Shown here: in pieces, positions 51,454 through 64,000 of the stretch
Position numbering within the stretch: the stretch's first letter is position 1
How the letters are laid out: each line of letters opens with the position of its first letter
DNA from: Cinnamomum chago
Taxonomy: Eukaryota > Streptophyta > Magnoliopsida > Laurales > Lauraceae
Length of the DNA stretch: 64,000 bases
Assembly: GCA_038049695.1 (NCBI GenBank)
Contig: CP142457.1
Location: 27,241,001-27,305,000 of the forward strand
Reading direction: 5' to 3'
The notes under the pieces: generated by a model
Seen by the model: only the letters and a program-made list of their open reading frames with translations
Databases searched by the model: none
Told to the model about the DNA's origin: nothing
Made by a program: the position numbers and the translations under genes

Positions 51454-52199
51454 CTATTCAAAAACATGACGGAGAGGAGCAGATACGTCATTAACATTAA
51501 CAACTTCTTTTCTTTTCTTTTCAGTTCTTTCTTAACGCACTTCTTCTATTTTTTCTTATGCTTCCCCTTTATTTTTTTATGCTTTTTCTTTAAGGGCACA
51601 TTTGGCAATGGTCCACGGTGTGGATTCCTCGCCATTTTTCCACGAATGCGCAGAAAATCCAAGTTTGGAAAAAATATTACTGTATGAAAGTGATGGACGC
51701 GATTTTTTTTTCTCTTTCCCCACCTCTCCCGTCCGTCCCCGGGGTCGCCGAGAGGAAAATTGAATGGAGGGAGGAAAGGGGGAGAAAAAAAGGGCATCTT
51801 ATGTTTTTTGTACGGGTATGCCATATTTTCTATTATACTTGGAATTTAGAAATGGTGATCCGAAGATCCACCTTCGCAAGTAGAAAGGAAATCAACCTTT
51901 TTCTGACTTTCCATTGCACATATATTTAAGAAAAGAGACAGTTTTTTAAAATGCCATGAGAGGCGATTTCATTTTGTTTACCGTAAAAGGCGAGTTTGCC
52001 GTGAAAGGCGATTTTTTTGCCGTAGGATGCGATTTTGTGACGTGAAAGGCGATTTACAAATCTCATCAATGAAGAAAGACAAGAAATGTGATTCTTTTGT
52101 CTCTTAAGGAAAATACAAAGTACAATAGAAAAGTGAGAAAGGGAATCTGACTTCTCAGGAGATCGTGGGGACCAGTTCAGATCGACAGTCACAAGTCAT
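51454..52199. other. Unassigned stretch between LTR nest and gypsy element
   Basis: No gene. A short repeat built on GTGAAAGGCGATTT recurs four or five times at 51945-52055; its wording resembles the minisatellite of the gypsy element at 60430. Confidence 0.45.
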
Positions 52200-52564
52200 T
52201 TATGGACTCCGCCATCGTCCTTCAAATGAGAACACTTGATGCTTTGATTCTTTGGCTTGGCTTGGACTTCAATTTTTTAGAGGATAAAGACCAAGGGAAG
52301 GTCCTATGCCCAATGAAAAACGAAGAGATGGGCTGAAGAGCTGCGTCTTGGCCATGTTGAGTAGAAGAAGAGGAGGCTTTTTCTTAGAGGGGGGGTGTGT
52401 CCCCCCAAGGGACTTTGATCACCTTTTGGTGTTTATTGCAGCAGAGTTTCTTCTAGTTTCTTCAGAGTAGTAGGGCTTCTGGATCTTGAGTTCAGAATTC
52501 TGGGATTCTGTGTGTTGTTTCCGGGCGTCTGTCTTCGGGGATCGTTTCTTCTTGGAATCACCTC

Positions 52565-52572
52565 TTTTTATA
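52565..52572 (-). promoter_or_regulatory. TATA box of the gypsy LTR
   Basis: TATAAAAA on the minus strand within GCCTATAAAAAGAGG, well placed for an LTR promoter. Confidence 0.65.
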
Positions 52573-53489
52573 GGCATTTGGTAGCCTTTAGGTGACTTAA
52601 TGTATTTAAAACCACATAATGGGAGGAGTTGCATGTTTTTATTTCTTTATTTTGTAACTCCTTTTTCTTGGCTTCTGATTGGCCGGTGGAGATAATGGGC
52701 ATTTAATCGCCTTTAATCTCCATAATGAGAGGAGTTTCATAACTTTAATGTCATGATGACTTGGACTTTTAACTCCCATTTCCTTGAATTTGATTGGGCC
52801 GTCCAAAATAATGAGTTAATGACCGCATTTAGTTGGGTAAATTAACAACATTAAGTGGTCGCCGGGAATTTGAAGAGTCGCGGGCCGTGCCGCGTCTTTT
52901 GGAATTCTTCCTGCGATGATCGACGATGGATTTTCATGTTGATCATTGTTAGATGATCATGCAAATTCAGATATTGGTTGATACCAGCGGGCCGGTGACA
53001 TCTGTCTTGTCGATTTCTCGATCGATTGGACAAAAAGTGTACTTTCTTGGTCAGCCGATTGGTGATCCCGGAGCGATCGGTGACGATTTCATGCTCTTAA
53101 TGGCGGATCCGTGATGTTGACGAAGATCAGTCGTTTCCGAGCATCAAAAATCAAATTTTTAGGAAATTACAAGGGCTAGAACCTCCGAAACGCGAAAAAG
53201 GATGGAAACTGGGTCACCCGGCGACAAATCCGGTGACCCGGATTTCCGTGGTCGCCGGCGACCATGGGGATTGGTACCCTTTTGGTCGCTGTTTCTCGGC
53301 CGTTCTTTGGTCTTTTTCGCCGCCGTTTTCTCCTGGATTTTTCGTGACATTTCTCCTCATTTTTTGGGTTGATTCTCCTGAAGAAAACCTGACGAGAAGT
53401 CGTGCAAATCAGGGCGCAAACTTTCCTATCTTTTGGAACAACTGAAGACCTTTGCCGCGCAGAGTTGCCGTTTTTTGTCAAGAGTTGAA

Positions 53490-54150
53490 ACTTGCTCAAA
53501 CGATGTCGGAATGACCTGAAATTTGACGTGAAGCTTCCTGAGCAATAGATAGGACCAACGATGGGCTTTTGTTTGAGTTTTGAAGCCGTTTAGGGCCCCG
53601 TTACTGCTAGGCTTGATTTCGCCGCGAGGAAGATGTCGTGCCTTGATGTATGGTCAACCGATGTCCGGTTGACCTGAAATTTGACATGGAGCCTATTGGA
53701 GTCATTTTGAGGTGATCCATTAGCTCCGATTTGGATGTCATGGTCCCGGGGTGCCCCGCCGCCGGTAGCCTTGATTTTCTTTCGGAGCGTCAAAGTCGGG
53801 TCAAACGTTGTCGGAATGACCTGAAATTTGACGTGCAACCCTTTTGAAGCATATTGAAGCTGCCCATGTGCTCCCTTTGATGAGTAATGGTCCTGATGGT
53901 TCTCGCCGCCGAGAGGCTTGATTTTCTTTCGGAGTGTCAAAGCTGGGTCAAACGTGTACGGAATGACTTGAAATTTGACGTGGAGCCTTTTGGAGGTATT
54001 TTGAGACCATCCGTAGGCTCTGATCAAAGTTTTGAAGTCTTCGATGCCGCCGCCACCGCTAGGAGTGTCTGTTTGGCTGCCGGAGGAGTGAAGTTGGGTC
54101 AAATAATGTCGGAATGGCCCGAAACTTCTTGTAAACCCCTCTTTTGGCTG
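53490..54150 (-). repeat. 150-bp tandem repeat inside the LTR, five copies
   Basis: GGTCAAACG.TGTCGGAATGAC followed by CTGAAATTTGACGTGGAGCC recurs near 53497, 53651, 53803, 53950 and 54098. The period, 147-154 bp, is close to 50 codons, so one minus-strand frame stays open for 192 codons (53590-54168) and repeats LHVKFQVIP.TFDP.LTLRKK. A gene is not claimed. Confidence 0.9.
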
Positions 54151-54288
54151 TCTTGAAGGATTTATCAATTTTCATTTGATTCTTACAAGATATGATGCTT
54201 GAAGCAGCAACGCCCTTTTGTAGTAGGATGTGGCTTCATGCGGCTTCCTTGATGTTGAAAAGACAAAGTGACATTTTTGGTGTCAACA

Positions 54289-54302
54289 AATGCCCCCTCG
54301 AG
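54289..54302 (-). promoter_or_regulatory. Polypurine tract of the gypsy element
   Basis: On the minus strand CTCGAGGGGGCATT lies immediately before the LTR start TGTTGACACC. Confidence 0.8.
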
Positions 54303-54509
54303 GTACAGCGACGAGTATCTTTTGAAGTCGATGTGCCTCGAAGAGAATCTTGAAGGAGAGCTTTCGATTTGACCAAGAGTCTTTGAGTATTTTTTTTAAT
54401 AGCCTTTTGAGTTTCCAAGGGGATTTTATGGTAGTGAGAGGGATCACGTACCATCTCAAGGCAAAGTTTTGAAAATGACATGAGGGAGTTGGATTTGGGT
54501 TTTGGATTT

Positions 54510-54830
54510 TGGGTTTTGCTTTTGATCTTGTGAACCTAAGGGCTTTATGTGGCGCATCAGGTGACCAAGAAGAATTTTTGGTTTTTGACCTTCTGACCTA
54601 ACAAACTGTATGTGGCAGGTTTGGGGGTCGGGGTTTGATTTTTCTAGTTTGACCTTGTGACCCAACAAGCTGTATGTGGCAAGTTGGGGGGTCGGGGTTC
54701 GGATTTTGGTTTTGACATTGTGACCTAACAAGCTGTATGTGGCGAGCCAGGGGGTCAGGGATTTTTTGGTTTTGGCCTTGTGACCTAACAAGCTTTATGT
54801 AGCAAGTTAAGGGACCAGGGTGTGGTTTTT
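54510..54830. repeat. Tandem repeat of about 65 bp, five copies
   Basis: TTTTGACCTTGTGACC, AACAAGCTGTATGTGGC and GGGGGTCGGGGTT recur near 54520, 54588, 54650, 54713 and 54775. Confidence 0.9.
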
Positions 54831-55124
54831 GTGGGTTGTCAATTTCAAGATTTTGGCTTAATTTGGTTCATGAGGTTGGATGGTTTGGTTTTTTGGGAAC
54901 TCATGAGGCTTTCTTTTCTTTTCTTTTTTTTTGAATGCTTCAATCGACTCAAAAGAGGCATGAAACCATTTTGTATGCTCTTGGTAAGAGAATTTTTTTG
55001 AAAGGAAGCTCCTTTACTGCCTAGGTGGTCAAACCTGGCTCATGTGGGCTAACCAATGGGACCTTAAGCTTTTAAAGACGGCTTAGATCTCACATGATGT
55101 CATTTTGTAAAGAATATCTAAAAA

Positions 55125-55290
55125 TATCTCACTTGGATAGAGAATATCTCAAGTTTCCTTTCTTTTGGGAGAGATTTTCTCAAAGTATCTCTTTTTGAGA
55201 GAGAATATTTCTCATTCCCTTTCTTTTTGGAGAAAATTTATCAAAGAATATTCTCTTAGGGAGAGAATATATCAAATCTCCTTTCTTTTG
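55125..55290. repeat. Short repeat, about 60 bp, three copies
   Basis: GAGAGAATAT.TC followed by CCTTTCTTTTGGGAGA recurs three times just upstream of the antisense gene's TATA box. Confidence 0.7.
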
Positions 55291-55361
55291 GGAAGGTTGC
55301 TAAGTTTTAGCACTTACCTCTTTTCTTTTCTCCTTATTTCCTCTTTTGGTTTGCTCTCTTC

Positions 55362-55369
55362 TATAAAAG
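55362..55369 (+). promoter_or_regulatory. TATA box of the antisense PMD gene
   Basis: TATAAAAG within TTCTATAAAAGCAAGG, about 135 bp upstream of the presumed start codon and followed by a pyrimidine-rich leader. It faces opposite to the retrotransposon's pol. Confidence 0.65.
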
Positions 55370-55497
55370 CAAGGGGAGGTTGGATCTTTGTTTCTTTGCT
55401 TTCTTTTTTTGCAAGAATCTTCAAGAGTGCTCCAAGATCAAGAGTTCTTCTTCTTCTTCTTCAAAGATCTTCAATATTTTCTTCTTCTTCCCCATCA

Positions 55498-58400
55498 ATG
55501 GCTTAAAGTAAGTTTTCTTTCTTCACAAGAAATTTCCATTGTAGAAGTAGAATCCTTTCCTTTTCTTCTTTTTCTTTTTCATGTGTTTTCTTTTTTCTTT
55601 TTTTTTCATGTGCTGTTTTTTTTTTTTTGACATTTTTTTTTTGGCTGTACGGACAGGTCCATAAGGACCTGGCCGTATTGCCACGTGGCAGTGGGCCACG
55701 GCCTGCTGCCCATAATTTTTTTTTTTTGAAACTTCTCGCTCTTTTTTTTGCTTCTTTTTTTTTTTTTTTGTGCTCACCATGAGAATGAGATTTATGCACC
55801 ATGATGATGAGGTTTTATACATTTCAAGATGTTCATGCATATTTGTTTGTTTGTTTCTTTTCTTTTTTGGATGCATCAAGATAAGAGGCTAGAATCTCTA
55901 GGTCAAGTCAACATGAATTTTGATTTTAACAAAGTTTGATTGGTTTTGACCAAGTTGGATTGGAATTGGTCAAACTTTGGTTAAAGTTTTCCTAGCATCT
56001 AAGGCATGATGATTTTTTGGATGCATGTTTTTTAGTAAATTGATTGGAAGCATGATGATGCATACCTAGAAATCTTTTGCAAGTTTTGGGATTTGGAGCT
56101 CGCAACAATGTTGAGCCCTTTCTTGATCTTGTTGGATTTTTGAGGAGCTTTGCATGTTTTGGAGTTTGGAGCTCGCAGCGATGTTGAGCCCTTTCTTCAA
56201 GCTTGCTATCTTTTTCGGGATGTTTCCTTTTCTACGGAATTGTCCCGGAATCATGCCAAAATTTCGCTAGAATTTTTCTTAGCAAAATTCTATCACTTTA
56301 ATGATTGATTTTTTTTTCTTTTCCATCCTTTTGCAGGTAGTTCCTCCGTAACGAACGGGGGCAAAGAGCCTGCTACTGATGCACCTCTTCAGTCTACCAG
56401 GTCTCCTAATGTGGCCGTACAGCAGGCCTGGGAGAAGGTCTAGTTTGTGGAGAGAAACCTAGAAGAGTGTGACTCCCTCAACCGCGATGAGATGAGACAG
56501 CGATTGATCGCTCTCAGGGATGAGGAGTTCTATAGAATTATGGTAGGCAATCGTCCTTGTGTCATGGACGATCAGAGCATTGTGCCCAAGCCTACCTTCT
56601 TCTTTGGTGATGCGGTCTCTGACGACTTGACGTACCAAAGAAGGTGTTTTCAGTTCTCTTACACATCTGGTGGTGAGGAGAGAACTATTTCTACGCAGTC
56701 GACTTTTGATCGGATTGTATCGATCATGAGTCTTTCTCCCACGTGTCCCAAAAGGGAGGATCCTCCAAGTTGGGTAAAGAGGACCAATGTGATAAAGACC
56801 GGGGTTTTTGTTGGCGGTCCTTCCGGATATGCGAAGAAGTCGCTTGTCCGTATGGACATGTTGATGCCTTCCAGTGGCTACTAAGGTTCTGACCATCCGG
56901 CGGTCAATTTGAGACCGGTTGGCCTTGGCATTTTTCTGGGTGACGACAGCAGTTGGGTGAAGCCTTTTCGACTTCGTGGCCGTTTCAGTACTGATTCAAG
57001 CTGGGAATCATGGATTGATCACACCCTGCAGGCTAGTGGAGCCATTTTGAGGGAGGCCGGGATCTTCGATGCGGTTCGCGCTTTTCGGAAGACCGTGGTT
57101 TTCTCCGATGAGGCCTTCATGGCCATGCTGGAGTCATTCATTAAACAAACCAACACCTTCATTGTGACGAATGGTGAGATTGGTTTTACCTTTAAGGAAT
57201 TAAGCGTCATCACCGGGCTGCCTATCATTGGCAAACTCTATGAGGAGTTTATGCCTATCGACAACGTTCTTGAGGAGCAGTCTAAGGAGTTCAGGCTCCT
57301 GTACTTTCAGCTCGTCGCCTTCTATGATTTTTTGAAAGAGAAGGAGGCCTCGAAAGTCCGGTGTAGCAGTTGGAAGAATTGTAGCTCCAACTTCTTTGAC
57401 GACGGAAAGTCTTTTGATGGTATGGCCCAAGATGCTAGGGCCAAGAACCCAGGTTCGAAGAAGATCTCCGTTATGCGAGATGACTTGAAGAAGTTCTTCA
57501 GGAGTACAGACGCCATTTATTCTGACATCGCACTGCGGAGAGATCTCACTGTTTACCTCACTTATTGGTTGGGTGAGGCTGTTTTTGCTGGAGGAGATGG
57601 AACACACATCAGGCCGCACTGTATTTTTCCTGCTTGTCAGATGGCGTTCGGAGAGCAGCTTGCTTTGGTGCCAGCTCTTTACTCCTACTTGTGTACCGAA
57701 CTGCAGGATGCTACTTTCTCGGTTCGGCTTGGGTTCCCTATGAACAGGATATTTTCAGCACATATTTTCTATTCGTGGTACGTGTACCACTGTCCCGGCT
57801 TCCACCGATTAGGAGTTGCTCAGGATGATGACCCTTTCATGATTCGGTTGGCTAGAGGGGCGGCCGTTTCCGAATCTCTCTTGTCTGCCCGTTTGAGGAT
57901 CCGCCGATTCAGGGACGTCGCGATCGGGCAATCTTCAATGAAACTTTCTCCAAGTTTGCGGAAGAAGGCTTTCGACTTTGGTGCCTCCCGTGATTCCACC
58001 AGGGCGGGGTCGGGAAGACAATACTCCTTGACCAATGTATAGAAGGGATGACTTTTTAACTTACGTGTTGGTACGATGGTGTACCAGAGACATTTTTTTG
58101 TTGATATCTAGCCGTATGTTCCCTCGCGTTTCGCGCTGCAGTTGGGTTTCTCTCAAGGCGTTGTTGGAGCCCCTTCGAGAATGGTGAAACGCTTTTGAGG
58201 TTTACAGGATGGGAGGAATGCATGGGCCTTTTATAGTGCGGAGGACACTACTACCATGATTTCCTATCCTGAGTTGCCCACTTTCCGGACTGCCGGCTTC
58301 ACGAAATGGTTCGTGGAAAGCTTTTCAATATACCAAGGGCTTTCCAAAAGGAGCTTGATGTCAAGTAATCTCCTGGGAAGGGTCTTGGCAGATCGGATGA

Positions 58401-60235
58401 AGTCCATCGAGAGGAAGTCCTGGCTTTCCTTTCCGGTGAGAAGCACAAGATCGGCTTCCTTAATGAGCAGGACATCATCAGACCTAGAGCTGTGCAAGAG
58501 ATACCTAGTGAGGTCTTGGATCAACTGGAAGAGGAGGAAGCCGAGATCGATGCTTGGATGCAAGCGGAATTAATAAAGGCCTACATGGGGTCTACCGGAA
58601 AGAGCAGACCATCCGGTGAGGAATCAAGCGAAGCTCCTGATTTTGACAGTGGGGCGGGTACTTCAAGTAAACCTTCCCATAGAAGCAAGAGGAAGAGAGA
58701 ACAACGCTGCAATAAGAGACGACACGATGACTCTCCTGATTTGGAAGTCCCCCTCGCCACCACTGAAGAAATGTCAGGGGATGCTGATGAGCCTTCGAAA
58801 AAGAGGAGTCGAGAGGAGGAAACCGTTGATGCAGGTATGATTCCTCTATTTCTCTTTCCATTTCTTTCTTTGAGATTTTCTTGTTTTGATTTGCATTCTC
58901 TCCCTTTTTCAGTGGAAGATGAGGACTTGGTGATGCCTGAGGTTCCAACTGATAAGGCAGTGATGGATCCGGCTGTGGCATCTGAAGAAGAACCGAGGGA
59001 CTCTGGAGTGATTTTCAGAATCTTCACCTGGTATGACTTCTTTGTATTTTCTTTCTTTTTGTGTCTGTGCTGTCATCTGCTAACATGTTGCTTGTTTTCT
59101 TGTCAGCTAACTTGCCACAGGATTCCGACGATTCCGAGCCATCCATGGACACGGCTTTTGACGACGTTTCGGATGAACTCATGGAGGCAGAGAGTATTCC
59201 GCCAATCGTCGAAGAAGGTATTTGTAGCAATAACCCTAATGATATTGATTTTTTCAACAGGATCGTATTCATACCTTTTTTGTTTTATTTTGCTGGCAGC
59301 TGTGAGGCGACAGAAGAAGTTCCTCCGTCTTTCTCAATGCCAGAGTAGGGGATGCCTGCAGTTGAACCAGAAGTAAGGACTTATTCTTCCAATTTTAATG
59401 CGGCAGAGTAGATTCCTTTCCCTAGTGTTTCTTTTTAGAAAGAGTTTAGTGATCACTCCAGCAGGACATGACACGAGCAGTCGACCAATGGAGAGGGGCA
59501 AGCCTTCGTCCGGGTCACCTCTTGAGTATGCAAAGAAAGTGCTGAAGAGCGTTATGAGCTCATGGATCGAAACTCTTTCTTCTGGACATTTAGAAGCCGG
59601 CTTTGGCATGATTAAGCATGTACAAGACATCCTTGCTGATAGCGAAGAGGTCTGCCTAGACATTGGAGATGCAAAGGCTTTCGTTGATGAAGTCATAACT
59701 CTAAGGAACAAGTGGAATGAAACAAAGAGCTTCCTAAGTGGTGACTTCTTCAATGAGATGTTTTTGAAGCCTTCTGGTGAGGTCAAGTTTGAGCTGGATG
59801 AGATCTCGCGGACTCGGAAGCAATTCATTCGGGAGAGGAACGTTACCGAGTTGGCTATCATCGGGCTGACAGAGGATCTGCGCTGCATTGATAGGGAGGT
59901 CGTTGAGACCATGCAGCATCTTGAGTTATTAGAGGAACAAGTTGCCGCAAAATGGGATGCCATTGTGAAAGCTCGTGCCAGAGAAGGGTCTTTGATTCGC
60001 CAAGTCGAGGAGGCTGAGAGCAATCTCTGGAGGAAGACTCAAGAGTACGAGCAATGACAGATTCTTTGGGAAGAGCTTCCCCGTGCTGTAGATGGATCGC
60101 GGCGTTCTGCCGCATTCTATGGGAAGATCTTGAAGAAGCGTGGCCTGGAAGCTTTAGAGGCTAAGGCCAAGAGTTTGTTTGAGGAGTTGAGTCTTTGGTT
60201 GAACACCGTGTGTGCTTCTGATTCTTGTAACAAAC
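55498..60235 (+). pseudogene. Antisense plant-mobile-domain (PMD) gene carried by the gypsy element, decayed
   Basis: Exon 1 is ATGGCTTAAA (55498-55507) before GTAAGTTTTC; exon 2 begins after CATCCTTTTGCAG at 56337. The frame then runs on as SSSVTNGGKEPATDAP, AWEKV, a TAG at 56441, RNLEECDSLNRDEMRQRL, a TAA at 56882 and the long part to 58042. SSWESWIDHTL, SDEAFMAMLESFIKQTNTF and KELSVITGLPIIGKLYEEF mark a PMD (aminotransferase-like plant mobile domain). Frame changes near 58040 and 58440 precede an acidic/basic linker. Further introns are probable at 58835-58912, 59031-59106, 59218-59299 and about 59371-59437. The last exon encodes a coiled coil (about 59500-60054: VLKSVMSSWIETLSSG, ETMQHLELLEEQV), a TGA at 60055, and more reading to about 60230. 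Exon 1 itself has a stop after two codons. A host-derived gene is inferred; it is dead in this copy. Confidence 0.72.
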
Positions 60236-60429
60236 CCCTTTTTTTTTCTTTTTTTTTGGTACCCGTGTATAAACACATTTTTTTGGTACTCTTTCTTTTG
60301 TAGTGCTTGTGGACATTTTTTTTAAAACTTCTCTTTTTTTGTATTCCCTCCTTTCACTCAAATTCTTTTGTTAAATGGGAATATTTGTTTGGAAATTTGA
60401 TCAAAAGTTTGTCATTTTGTGAAAAACCT

Positions 60430-60900
60430 TTTATCAAATGGTTGTTTTGGCGTGAAGGCCGAATTTTGAGATGGCATGGAAGCCAAAATTTGGGTCGGCA
60501 TGGGAGTCGGAGTTTTGAGGCGTAAAAGTCAAAATTTGGGATGGCATGGTAGCCGAATTTTGTTTGTGACATGGGAGCCAAGTTTTTTTGTAATGGCATG
60601 AAAGCTGATTTTTGAAATGGTATGAGAGCCGGGTTTTATGGCTAAGAGCCAGGTTTTTTTTGAAATGGCATGGAAGTCGGTTTTGTTTGTGGCATGGGAG
60701 CCAAAATTTGTTTGTGGCATTGATAGCCGAAATTTGTTTTTGGCATGGAAGCTGGTTTGCTTTTTGGCATGGAAGCCGAATTTTGAAATGACATTTATAG
60801 TCGATTTTAGTGGCATTTATAGCCGAGTTTTTGGCGTTTAAACCGATTTTTGTGGCATTTATAGCCGATTTTTTTGTGACGTTTATAGCCTGTTTTTTAT
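60430..60900. repeat. Degenerate minisatellite of about 25-35 bp
   Basis: GGCATGGAAGCCGAATTTTG and variants (GGCATGGGAGCCAAAATTTG, GGCATTTATAGCCGA) recur about 15 times between the antisense gene and pol. Confidence 0.88.
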
Positions 60901-60924
60901 TTTAAAAAATGCAAGTATCAACTA

Positions 60925-61310
60925 AAAGTCGCCTCCCTGCTGAATGGTCTTGCAAGTATCGATGGAATGTCGCCTCCTCGCGGATTTAGGCGCAGGTATC
61001 GACTAAGCGTCGCTTCCTTGCTTTTTTCTCAAAAATTTTGGTTTTGTGGGTATCGATGGAATGTCGCTTCCCCACGATTTTTGAAATTTGAGGTTTTTGT
61101 TTTTTGAACCTCGATTTTTGTTTGAATTTGGGTTTGTGGATATCAACTGGAATGTTGCGTCTCCATGGTTTTTTTTTGAAATTTTGCAAGTATCGACAAA
61201 GTGTCGCTTCCTTGCGATTTTGAAATTTTGGAAGTATCGAATGGGATTCTCATCCTTCTGGTTTTGGGTTTTGCGAGTATCGACTGATCGTCGCCTTCCC
61301 GCGGTTTCTA
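60925..61310. repeat. Degenerate tandem repeat with a GTATCGA...GTCGC core
   Basis: GCAAGTATCGACTAA..GTCGC.TCC..GCG recurs about seven times with spacers of 15-60 bp. It adjoins the minisatellite at 60430-60900 and lies in the element's 3' untranslated region. Confidence 0.85.
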
Positions 61311-61662
61311 AAAAAACCTTTTTTTTTAAAGACACGAGGGTCGTAAATTTTGACTTAAAACCGTTTTTTGTTGTAAAAGTCAAGGTGGACTAGGGTGGAA
61401 ATTCCTAAGTCCTGATTCTGTTTCAAACCATGAACTTTTGGTCTAAGGATAGAAAATTTGGTCAAGTCCGGGAAGAGGCTCCTAAACTTGGATTTTTGGA
61501 TTTTTTTTTTGGAACAATGAAACTATGACCAAAGCATTGTTTTGAATTTTTAGAGATCTCAACATAAGGATGAAAAATCTAAAAGAGGCGGGTTTGACGA
61601 GCGAGTACTTGAGAATTGGCTTTGGCCGCGCAGGCACTGTTCTGACCCGGTGGCTGAAGTCT

Positions 61663-64000
61663 TCAAGGGTAGTACCGCTTCAAGAACTTGCCGTTGATGG
61701 GCATCATACATCTGTCGCCCTCCACGTTTAGAAGTGCGTATGCGCTGTTAGAGAAGACCTTGTCAATGACGAAGGGTCCCTCCCATTTTGGTTCGAGTTT
61801 GCCTTTAGATTTGTGGGCAAAAACCATTGACTTTTTTAATGCAAGAACCAAGTTGTCGTTTTTGTAGGCGTGTTGCCTGACCCTTTTTGTAGGAAGATCC
61901 TGCCATGCGAGCCTGGTGCAGCTCAATGCTTTGTAAGGCTTCGAGCCGTCTTTCGTCGAGATTGTTCAGTTCTTGGAGTCTCAGTTTGACATTGCTTTTT
62001 TGCGTCATATCATTTTGCAAAGATACCTTTAAGGAAGAAATTTGTACCTCCAAAGGGACAACAGATTCGCATCCATAGACCAAAGAGAATGGTGTGCTAT
62101 GGGTAGGCCCTCGAACGGTGGTTCGATAAGCCCACAAAGCTTCAGGCAATTTGTCGCCCCAGTCTCTTTTGTGACTAGAGACCATTTTCTTGAGGATTTT
62201 GCAGAGTGTCTTGTTGAAGGCTTCTGTTAGTCCGCTTGTTGCCGGATTGTACGGAGTCGAATGACAACTTTGGATTTTGTATTTGTCGCAAAAGCTGTAG
62301 AATCGGTGATTCCGGAATTGTGGTCCGTTATTGTGAACGAATCTTTTAGGTATGCCGAAGCAGCAAATAATGTTGATGCGCAAGAATTGAAGGACTGATG
62401 ATGTCTTCATTTCACTGAGCGCAAATGCTTCTAACTATTTGGAGAAATAATCCGTAGCGGCGAAGATGAAGCGATGGCCTTTGCTTGACGGGGGAGAGAT
62501 GGGACCTATGTTGTCCATACCCCAAGCTTCGAACGGTCATGAGATTGCTGTGGGATGTAGCCATTCTGGAGGCATGTGGACATAGTCTCCATGAACTTGG
62601 CATTGACGGCAACGTTTAACAAAGTGCATAGCGTCAGCTACCATGGTAGGTCAGTAATATCCCAACCTTTTTATCTGATCATAGAGCTTGGGACCAGCCT
62701 GATGAGCTCCACAAAGACCGGCATGAACTTCTTTGAGGGTTTCCTTAGCCTCTTGTTGTGACAAGCAGCGCAGAAGTACTTCGTCGAAGGATTTTCTGTA
62801 AAGCATTTTTTAGGGTATATCCAAATGAAAGTTTGTTGCTCGTCTTTGGACGCTCACCCATTTTTTTGGATCTTCAGGGAGGATTCCGAACATGGTGTAA
62901 TCAATGAACGGATTTCTCTAGTCGCTGATTGGAGGTTTATGGAAGGAGATCCGACTTTCGGCCAATTGGTGGCATTCAGCAACTGCTTGGTGCGTGGTAA
63001 GAGGAGGGAGAATCCTTTTTTGGCACACTGTGATTTGTATGTTTTCCCTTCTTGGATCGCCATGTATGCGGCAAGTCCGGCCAAGGCAACTGCACGAATG
63101 TTCTCACCTCTGAGGATATGGGTGATGTGACAGATGTCAAACCTTTGGCGAAGTGATTGTGCCTTGTTGTAGTAAGGCAACAGATCAGGCTTCCTGACTT
63201 CAAATTTCTGATTCATTTGGTTGACGATTAGTTCGGAGTCCTCAAAGACTTCCAGCATGGTGATGCCAGATTCGAGGGCTAGTTCCAGTCCTACAATCAG
63301 GGATTGGTACTCAGCTGCATTGTTCGAGCATGGTTCCAGTAGCGAGAAGGCGTGTGGAATCATGTGCTTATCGGGGCTAACAAAGAGGATGCCAACTCCC
63401 GAGATCAACTTTTTTTTTTTTTCATTTGTCCTGGTTGCACCATCAAAGTACATGTCCCAGGGGGCATTTGGTGAGAAAGTCTCCACGTTGTAGACAGGTT
63501 CGTCTGGGAGATCATCTCTGAGCGGGGAATCTTTAGGCAATGGATGCTCTGCGAGGAAGTCTGCTAGAGCTTGGCCTTTGATTGTCTTTTATGGTACATG
63601 CTTGATATCAAATTGTGATAGGAGGATGAACCATTTTGCCAGTCGTGCATTGAGAGAACTTTCTTTTGTGACGAGAACCTTTAAGAGGTTGATCCTCGAA
63701 ATCAGGTAGACTGTGTTTGAAAAAAGGTAGTGATGTAACTTTTGTACGACAAACATCACTGCAAGGCATTCTTTCTCGACTGGAGAGTAGCAATGCTCCG
63801 CACCTACCAACATATGGCTGAGATAGTATAGAGCAGCTTCTTTTCCTCCGTCATTCTCTTGTGCAAGCAGCGCACCCAGAGAGTGGTCGAGAGCTCTTGT
63901 GTACAAGATGAATGGTTTTCCAGTGGTAGGGGCAGCCAGCACTGGAGGTTTAGTTATGTATGACTTGATATCTTGAAATGCTGCTTCACATTCAGCATCC
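61663..64000 (-). pseudogene. gypsy pol 3' part: RNase H, second RNase H, integrase (inactivated)
   Basis: From the right edge: RNase H (63942-63592; YTRALDHSLGALLAQ, YSPVEKECLAVMF, ARLAKWFILLSQFDI), a TAA at 63589, then in the same frame QALADFLAEHPLP and the second RNase H (about 63470-63000; MYFDGAT, NNAAEYQSLIVGLELALE, EDSELIVNQ), where the usual RADALA is RAVALA. Next the integrase zinc region (EVHAGLCGAHQAGPKLYDQI ... CRQCQ, about 62720-62595), the core (GMDNIGPI, VHNNGPQF in place of a DNG, TEAFNKT) and the C-terminal domain (KWEGPFVIDKVFS), ending PINGKFLKRYYP at 61663. In-frame stops lie near 62815, 62652, 62539 and 62437; a frame change lies near 61920. No active product is possible. 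Confidence 0.92.

Follow-up and report, generated by a model that had tools for sequence, protein, structure and literature searches.

A four-intron PMD gene antisense to pol recurs in a Tat-type Ty3/gypsy retrotransposon family of Cinnamomum chago and bears signs of past purifying selection

The 64,000-nucleotide stretch analysed here (the window, C7:27241001-27305000) belongs to the 1.06 Gb, 14-contig genome of Cinnamomum chago and carries on its minus strand a Tat-type Ty3/gypsy retrotransposon, within which a gene with a plant mobile domain (PMD) lies on the plus strand. The element, recognized by its pol domains, a partner long terminal repeat (LTR) and pieces of gag, protease and reverse transcriptase (RT), spans 51691-64000 of the window and continues to at least C7:27316261. 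Its 3' LTR occupies 51691-54288 (2,598 bp, minus strand), with TG at the low end and CA at the high end, and because the partner LTR was found at C7:27314594-27316261 the element is at least 23.57 kb long, counted from window position 51691 to C7:27316261. The partner aligned only with the 51691-53264 part of the 3' LTR, and no remainder of it was found up to C7:27317700. Divergence of the LTR pair was 0.0716 (Kimura two-parameter distance, K2P; 1,569 aligned sites), which would correspond to 2.8-5.1 million years since insertion if substitutions accrue at 1.3e-8 or 7e-9 per site per year. The partner match ends about 1 kb early, at C7:27316261, through either truncation or a nested insertion.

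Domain analysis of the minus strand showed the order RNase H (RH), additional RNase H (aRH) and integrase (INT). The RT-linked RNase H was located at 63592-63999 (RT_RNaseH_2, E 5.6e-27; RT_RNaseH, E 5.4e-25), the aRH, a Tat-clade feature, at 62857-63588 (RVT_3, E 1.7e-17), and broken integrase pieces (core and C-terminal part, by profile match) at 61663-62434, while pieces of RT, protease and gag follow on the same strand past the window end (locus L042). The first-pass annotation had set the last pol stop at 61663 on the minus strand and the LTR end at 54288, and both positions held, the LTR with its partner matched. An aRH between RH and INT is the rule for the Ogre or Retand lineage (Neumann 2019, PMC6317226), and the Tat type is supported here because a second RNase H, present besides the RT-linked one, sits in this position. 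A PMD extra open reading frame (ORF) is also present, which is typical of Ogre elements (57% of members) and not defining for them. The element most likely belongs to the Ogre lineage of the Tat clade. Transposase_28 (PF04195), the mark of Retand, gave no match at E <= 1 in six scanned gene pieces, and 2 of 63 published Retand clusters likewise lack it (PMC11963269). No clear tRNA-Arg primer binding site was seen beside the 5' LTR in a comparison with tRNA ends only.

The PMD gene copy of the window extends over approximately 55362-60210 on the plus strand, antisense to pol and between pol and the 3' LTR. A DNA search of the genome with its exon 2, in which the best 40 of 2,285 candidates were scored, identified at least 39 further genomic copies that were 88-91% identical; since these carry the region, the gene is not a one-off insertion, an outcome that would have refuted the first-pass annotation. 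The 30 best copies, including that of the window (L009), were aligned as 5.5-kb loci, and the fractions given below refer to this alignment, in which five copies were not alignable over the TATA region.

A TATA box (TATAAAAG) was present at 55362-55369, and TATAAA was found in 23/30 copies. Exon 1 (55498-55507) is 10 nt long, consisting of three codons and one base in place of the two codons first proposed; it begins with ATG in 24/30 copies, and its third codon is a stop in the window copy and two others. Intron 1 (55508-56336) measured 829 bp, close to the earlier estimate of about 830 bp, with its donor GT in 25/30 copies and acceptor AG in 28/30. Exon 2 (56337-58834) contains the entire PMD region, including a Pfam PMD match at 57059-57715 (PF10536 profile positions 1-165 of 347) that was detected in the stop-free piece 56885-58039 with an E value of 4e-14 and 53 bits, above the Pfam cut-off of 34.9. 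Before intron 2 lies a basic cluster (58672-58734; KRKR in 28/30 copies) that resembles a nuclear localization signal and may act as one. Intron 2 (58835-58912; GT 28/30, AG 26/30), intron 3 (59031-59106; GT 28/30, AG 26/30) and intron 4 (59218-59299; GT 26/30, AG 28/30) are all in phase 1, as is intron 1, and separate exon 3 (58913-59030; 117 bp in 26/30 copies, 118 in the window) and exon 4 (59107-59217; 111 bp in 25/30 copies) from their neighbours. Exon 5 (59300-60213) holds the end of an acidic linker (25% D+E) and a C-terminal helical part, and terminates at a shared stop in codon 1223 (17/30) or 1225 (23/30). The several short introns and the acidic linker of the first-pass annotation were both recovered, the former in the aligned copies.

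At the C-terminus, where the first-pass annotation had proposed a coiled coil, a long helix is predicted: the C-terminal piece, folded alone, gave a mean pLDDT of 54.8, with only the helical residues 181-226 reaching block means of 81-93. No chain among solved structures matched the PMD piece at E <= 0.001, the best (0.014) being unrelated. A fifth intron at approximately 59371-59464 (GT..AG) was considered and rejected, as the donor is absent in most other copies and the stretch is exonic and in frame. Within the T-rich intron 1, a GC-rich island containing the G-box CACGTG was noted at 55650-55715, and a repeated stretch at approximately 56090-56205 apparently has a different copy number in many other copies than in the window, judging from overlapping BLAST pieces.

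Removal of the four introns from the 30 aligned copies produced a shared frame of 1,222 codons with a median of 7 in-frame stops per copy (range 1-18), in comparison to 52 and 90 stops in the other two frames. Each of the eight splice dinucleotides was kept in 25-28 of the 30 copies, all eight were kept in 14, and every copy kept at least five. Exons 3 and 4 were near-constant in length beside introns 2-4, which occurred in many lengths with all three remainders modulo 3, and T content was 23-27% in exons and 44-58% in introns. In stretches adjoining 23 of the 39 other copies, pol was antisense to the PMD gene in all 16 copies with a pol match; the remaining seven had no pol match in the short stretches available. 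The first-pass annotation had proposed a PMD gene that has a promoter and introns and runs antisense within a Tat-type gypsy element; this was borne out by the PF10536 match, the TATA box, the four introns and the position of the aRH, and frame and splice sites proved to be common to the 30 aligned copies. The description of the gene architecture as intact in that annotation applies to the structure shared across the family but not to the window copy, which is a pseudogene with private single-base frame shifts and 11 in-frame stops when read in the family frame.

Selection was analysed by comparing variants confined to one copy (singletons), assumed to be mostly post-insertion, with variants shared by at least three copies, assumed to be mostly older. 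Singletons comprised 1,075 nonsynonymous, 435 synonymous and 58 stop changes, and shared variants 313, 288 and 27, respectively, so that amino-acid changes were clearly depleted among shared variants (nonsynonymous vs synonymous, p = 2e-16), indicating purifying selection on the PMD gene during the spread of the family. In exons 1-2 third positions made up a share of 0.36 among singletons and of 0.46 among shared variants (p = 0.0004), and with deamination-prone changes removed the values were 0.36 and 0.66 (p = 5e-11), while introns read in a dummy frame showed no third-position excess. The integrase pieces of 15 copies, used as a positive control, had nonsynonymous to synonymous counts of 152:77 for singletons and 12:36 for shared variants. 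These substitution patterns bear the signature of constraint on the PMD gene as the family expanded, less strong than that on integrase, and of neutral decay after insertion.

We consider it probable that the PMD gene is a resident gene of this Tat-clade, most likely Ogre-lineage, retrotransposon, lying between pol and the 3' LTR in the orientation opposite to gag-pol and encoding a nuclear PMD protein that would be made through a spliced antisense mRNA. RNA polymerase II (Pol II) would transcribe the gene from its own promoter, and the antisense mRNA would be spliced and then translated into the nuclear protein. The genomic RNA would be made from the other strand and, because it would hold the antisense introns backwards and in unspliceable form, these introns would survive retrotransposition and every new DNA copy would regain an intron-bearing gene; this argument for the persistence of antisense introns, already made in the first-pass annotation, is logically sound. 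The PMD protein would most likely act at chromatin, either by aiding transcription of the element itself or by dampening host silencing; the first-pass annotation had suggested that the gene might counter silencing or regulate the element. The host PMD proteins MAIN and MAIL1 have roles in silencing and transcription (PMC5418596, PMC7156037) and Ikeda et al. propose an anti-silencing use for MULE-captured PMDs (PMC5418596), and for these reasons a chromatin role in element expression is our first choice of function by analogy, albeit one to which we assign a low chance. An extended version can be put forward tentatively and is itself rather doubtful: a complete multi-intron Pol II gene would be kept on the antisense strand, its nuclear PMD protein would counter chromatin silencing and rival the MAIN/MAIL1 pathway, and the reversed introns would set the antisense mRNA apart from genomic RNA in splicing, export and small-RNA fate.

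A number of observations weigh against a PMD gene that serves its element. The recurrent gene structure, the antisense placement and the past constraint were observed in the copies themselves, whereas transcription, splicing and function of the gene are predicted from the DNA sequence. None of the 30 copies was free of in-frame stops, certain in-frame stops recurred in 6-8 copies, and the length of exon 2 (2.5 kb) was divisible by three in just 14/30 copies, with many private indels. Exons 3-5 lacked a third-position excess (singletons 0.35, shared 0.33), and stop changes were equally common among shared (27/628) and singleton (58/1,568) variants, a parity that could come from recurrent deamination or from broken copies that spread with help in trans. 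Retention of splice dinucleotides was 0.936 in comparison to 0.892 for 83 other intronic GT/AG pairs (p = 0.28; for intron 1 only, seven copies whose upstream regions are altered were excluded), which is the expected outcome if most divergence arose post-insertion but means that retention by itself is no evidence of selection. Shared indels numbered 2 in exons and 57 in introns when all tracts were counted (part-deleted copy L024 excluded), but without low-complexity tracts the numbers fell to 0 and 3, with 86 and 78 singletons, and because the contrast nearly disappeared in this way we did not rely on it.

Much of this would also be seen if a host PMD gene had been captured once, in antisense, by the family ancestor and copied along since without use to the element. 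The interruption of the family frame by one or more stops in all 30 copies, the stops common to 6-8 copies, which imply that broken copies may have spread, and the absence of a third-position excess in exons 3-5 all agree with such a passenger gene. We nevertheless regard this as unlikely, as the strong third-position bias of shared variants in exons 1-2 and the depletion of nonsynonymous change relative to singletons over the whole gene speak against it. Furthermore, the PMD shows an identity of only 19-24% with five other PMD proteins encoded in the genome, among which no recent host source was seen, and the occurrence of PMD in 57% of Ogre elements suggests long residence (PMC6317226).

Alternatively, the antisense RNA itself may matter, through double-stranded RNA and small interfering RNA (siRNA) control or through interference with genomic RNA, in which case the PMD frame would be a relic. 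Antisense RNAs of LTR elements can be regulatory, and a 2020 review keeps both options (PMC7264820); PMD genes also yield 21-nt phased siRNAs in tea (PMC10673657). A non-coding role, however, predicts neither selection by codon position nor constant exon lengths next to freely varying introns, and we judge it improbable. It is more improbable still that the introns are low-complexity, T-rich sequence inserted into a dead region whose exon-intron pattern is coincidental: intron indels do lie mostly within low-complexity tracts and the splice dinucleotides are not significantly better retained than other intronic GT/AG pairs, but four stretches that are all GT..AG and all in phase 1, whose removal alone yields the 1,222-codon frame (7 stops vs 52 and 90), and flanking exons that hold 117 and 111 bp speak against this. 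Least likely of all is that a PMD-bearing DNA transposon (MULE) entered an ancestor of the retrotransposon and has been fixed in the family since, for although the genome has a repeated family with PMD genes beside MULE transposase (L044), the L044 PMD is 22% identical to that of the window and no transposase domain occurred in the six gene pieces scanned, terminal inverted repeats not having been searched for.

A resident antisense PMD gene can be compared with several described systems. Neumann et al. 2019 (PMC6317226) reported that 57% of Ogre elements carry PMD (pfam10536) in an extra ORF, and PMD is frequent in gypsy consensuses according to PMC9289625, which credits Steinbauerova et al. 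2011 with the link to gypsy. Ogre-lineage elements share with the present one the PMD extra ORF, the aRH between RH and INT, large size and long LTRs, but the available account describes extra ORFs in contrast to the multi-intron antisense unit found here (PMC6317226). The PMD-A1/A2 clades are exclusively Gypsy-encoded and distinct from host PMD-B/C and MULE PMD-C (Ikeda et al. 2017, PMC5418596); our gene is likewise a Gypsy-borne PMD, and the word 'intron' is absent from the main text of that paper whereas the window gene has four. Gene23 of the maize Grande element (PMC7264820) is likewise antisense between pol and the 3' LTR, has its own promoter and encodes a nuclear protein, but neither PMD nor introns are mentioned for it in the available parts of that source, and both occur in the window gene. 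The promoter, emphasized in the first-pass annotation as part of what was notable, is present in the form of the TATA box but is therefore not new in kind. The antisense ORFs of Retand elements (Vicient 2025, PMC11963269) also lie between pol and the 3' LTR with tandem repeats, and a regulatory role was proposed for them, but their domain is TRP28 (Transposase_28) and not PMD, and the main text contains the words 'intron' and 'PMD' 0 times.

Plant LTR elements are generally without introns, with Ogre and EVADE as named exceptions whose introns lead to subgenomic RNAs (2025 review, PMC12786077). The Ogre intron between gag-pro and pol thus occurs in the same lineage but in the sense transcript, unlike the antisense introns of the window (PMC6317226, PMC12786077). 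PMD in Ogre elements and an antisense gene with its own promoter (Grande) were already known, and what stands out is the antisense structure with four introns, kept across many copies and bearing marks of selection. Full-text searches of open-access literature turned up no antisense gene with several introns in an element of this kind, and Steinbauerova et al. 2011 could contain one.

The antisense ORFs of Tat elements were described years ago and have no known role. Selection before insertion indicates that the PMD protein was important to the element. The four splice junctions make expression directly testable, as a junction read is strand-specific and is not mimicked by genomic RNA or read-through; the 2020 review calls for a search for antisense and spliced transcripts (PMC7264820). 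The gene also bears on the direction of origin, that is, whether host PMD genes (MAIN, MAIL1) arose from Gypsy PMDs or the reverse, a question that is fully open according to Ikeda et al. (PMC5418596).

Relatives of the element were not detected in IMG/VR in three scans with the PMD, integrase and aRH pieces. A tandem repeat of 61 bp in 3 copies (55113-55293, plus strand) lies directly upstream of the TATA box and antisense promoter, and degenerate tandem repeats of approximately 21-26 bp (60458-60898, strand unassigned) lie between the PMD gene and pol. Further degenerate tandem repeats were seen at 61174-61283, also between the PMD gene and pol, and Retand elements have been reported with similar ones (PMC11963269).

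Three other PMD regions of the genome (L044-L046) were compared with the window and none resembled its family. The repeated family represented at L044:3784-7876 combines a PMD gene (PF10536, E 1.2e-58 and 4.9e-12) with a convergently oriented MULE transposase piece (E 4.4e-13) and FAR1 domain (E 1.3e-7). Many PMD matches of the genome resemble it and have open frames of 297 residues; as these frames are often free of stops, the family may be young. Finally, three PMD matches with open frames of 499-597 residues occur within about 32 kb at C10:59.77-59.80 Mb (L001-L003) and perhaps represent a host PMD cluster.

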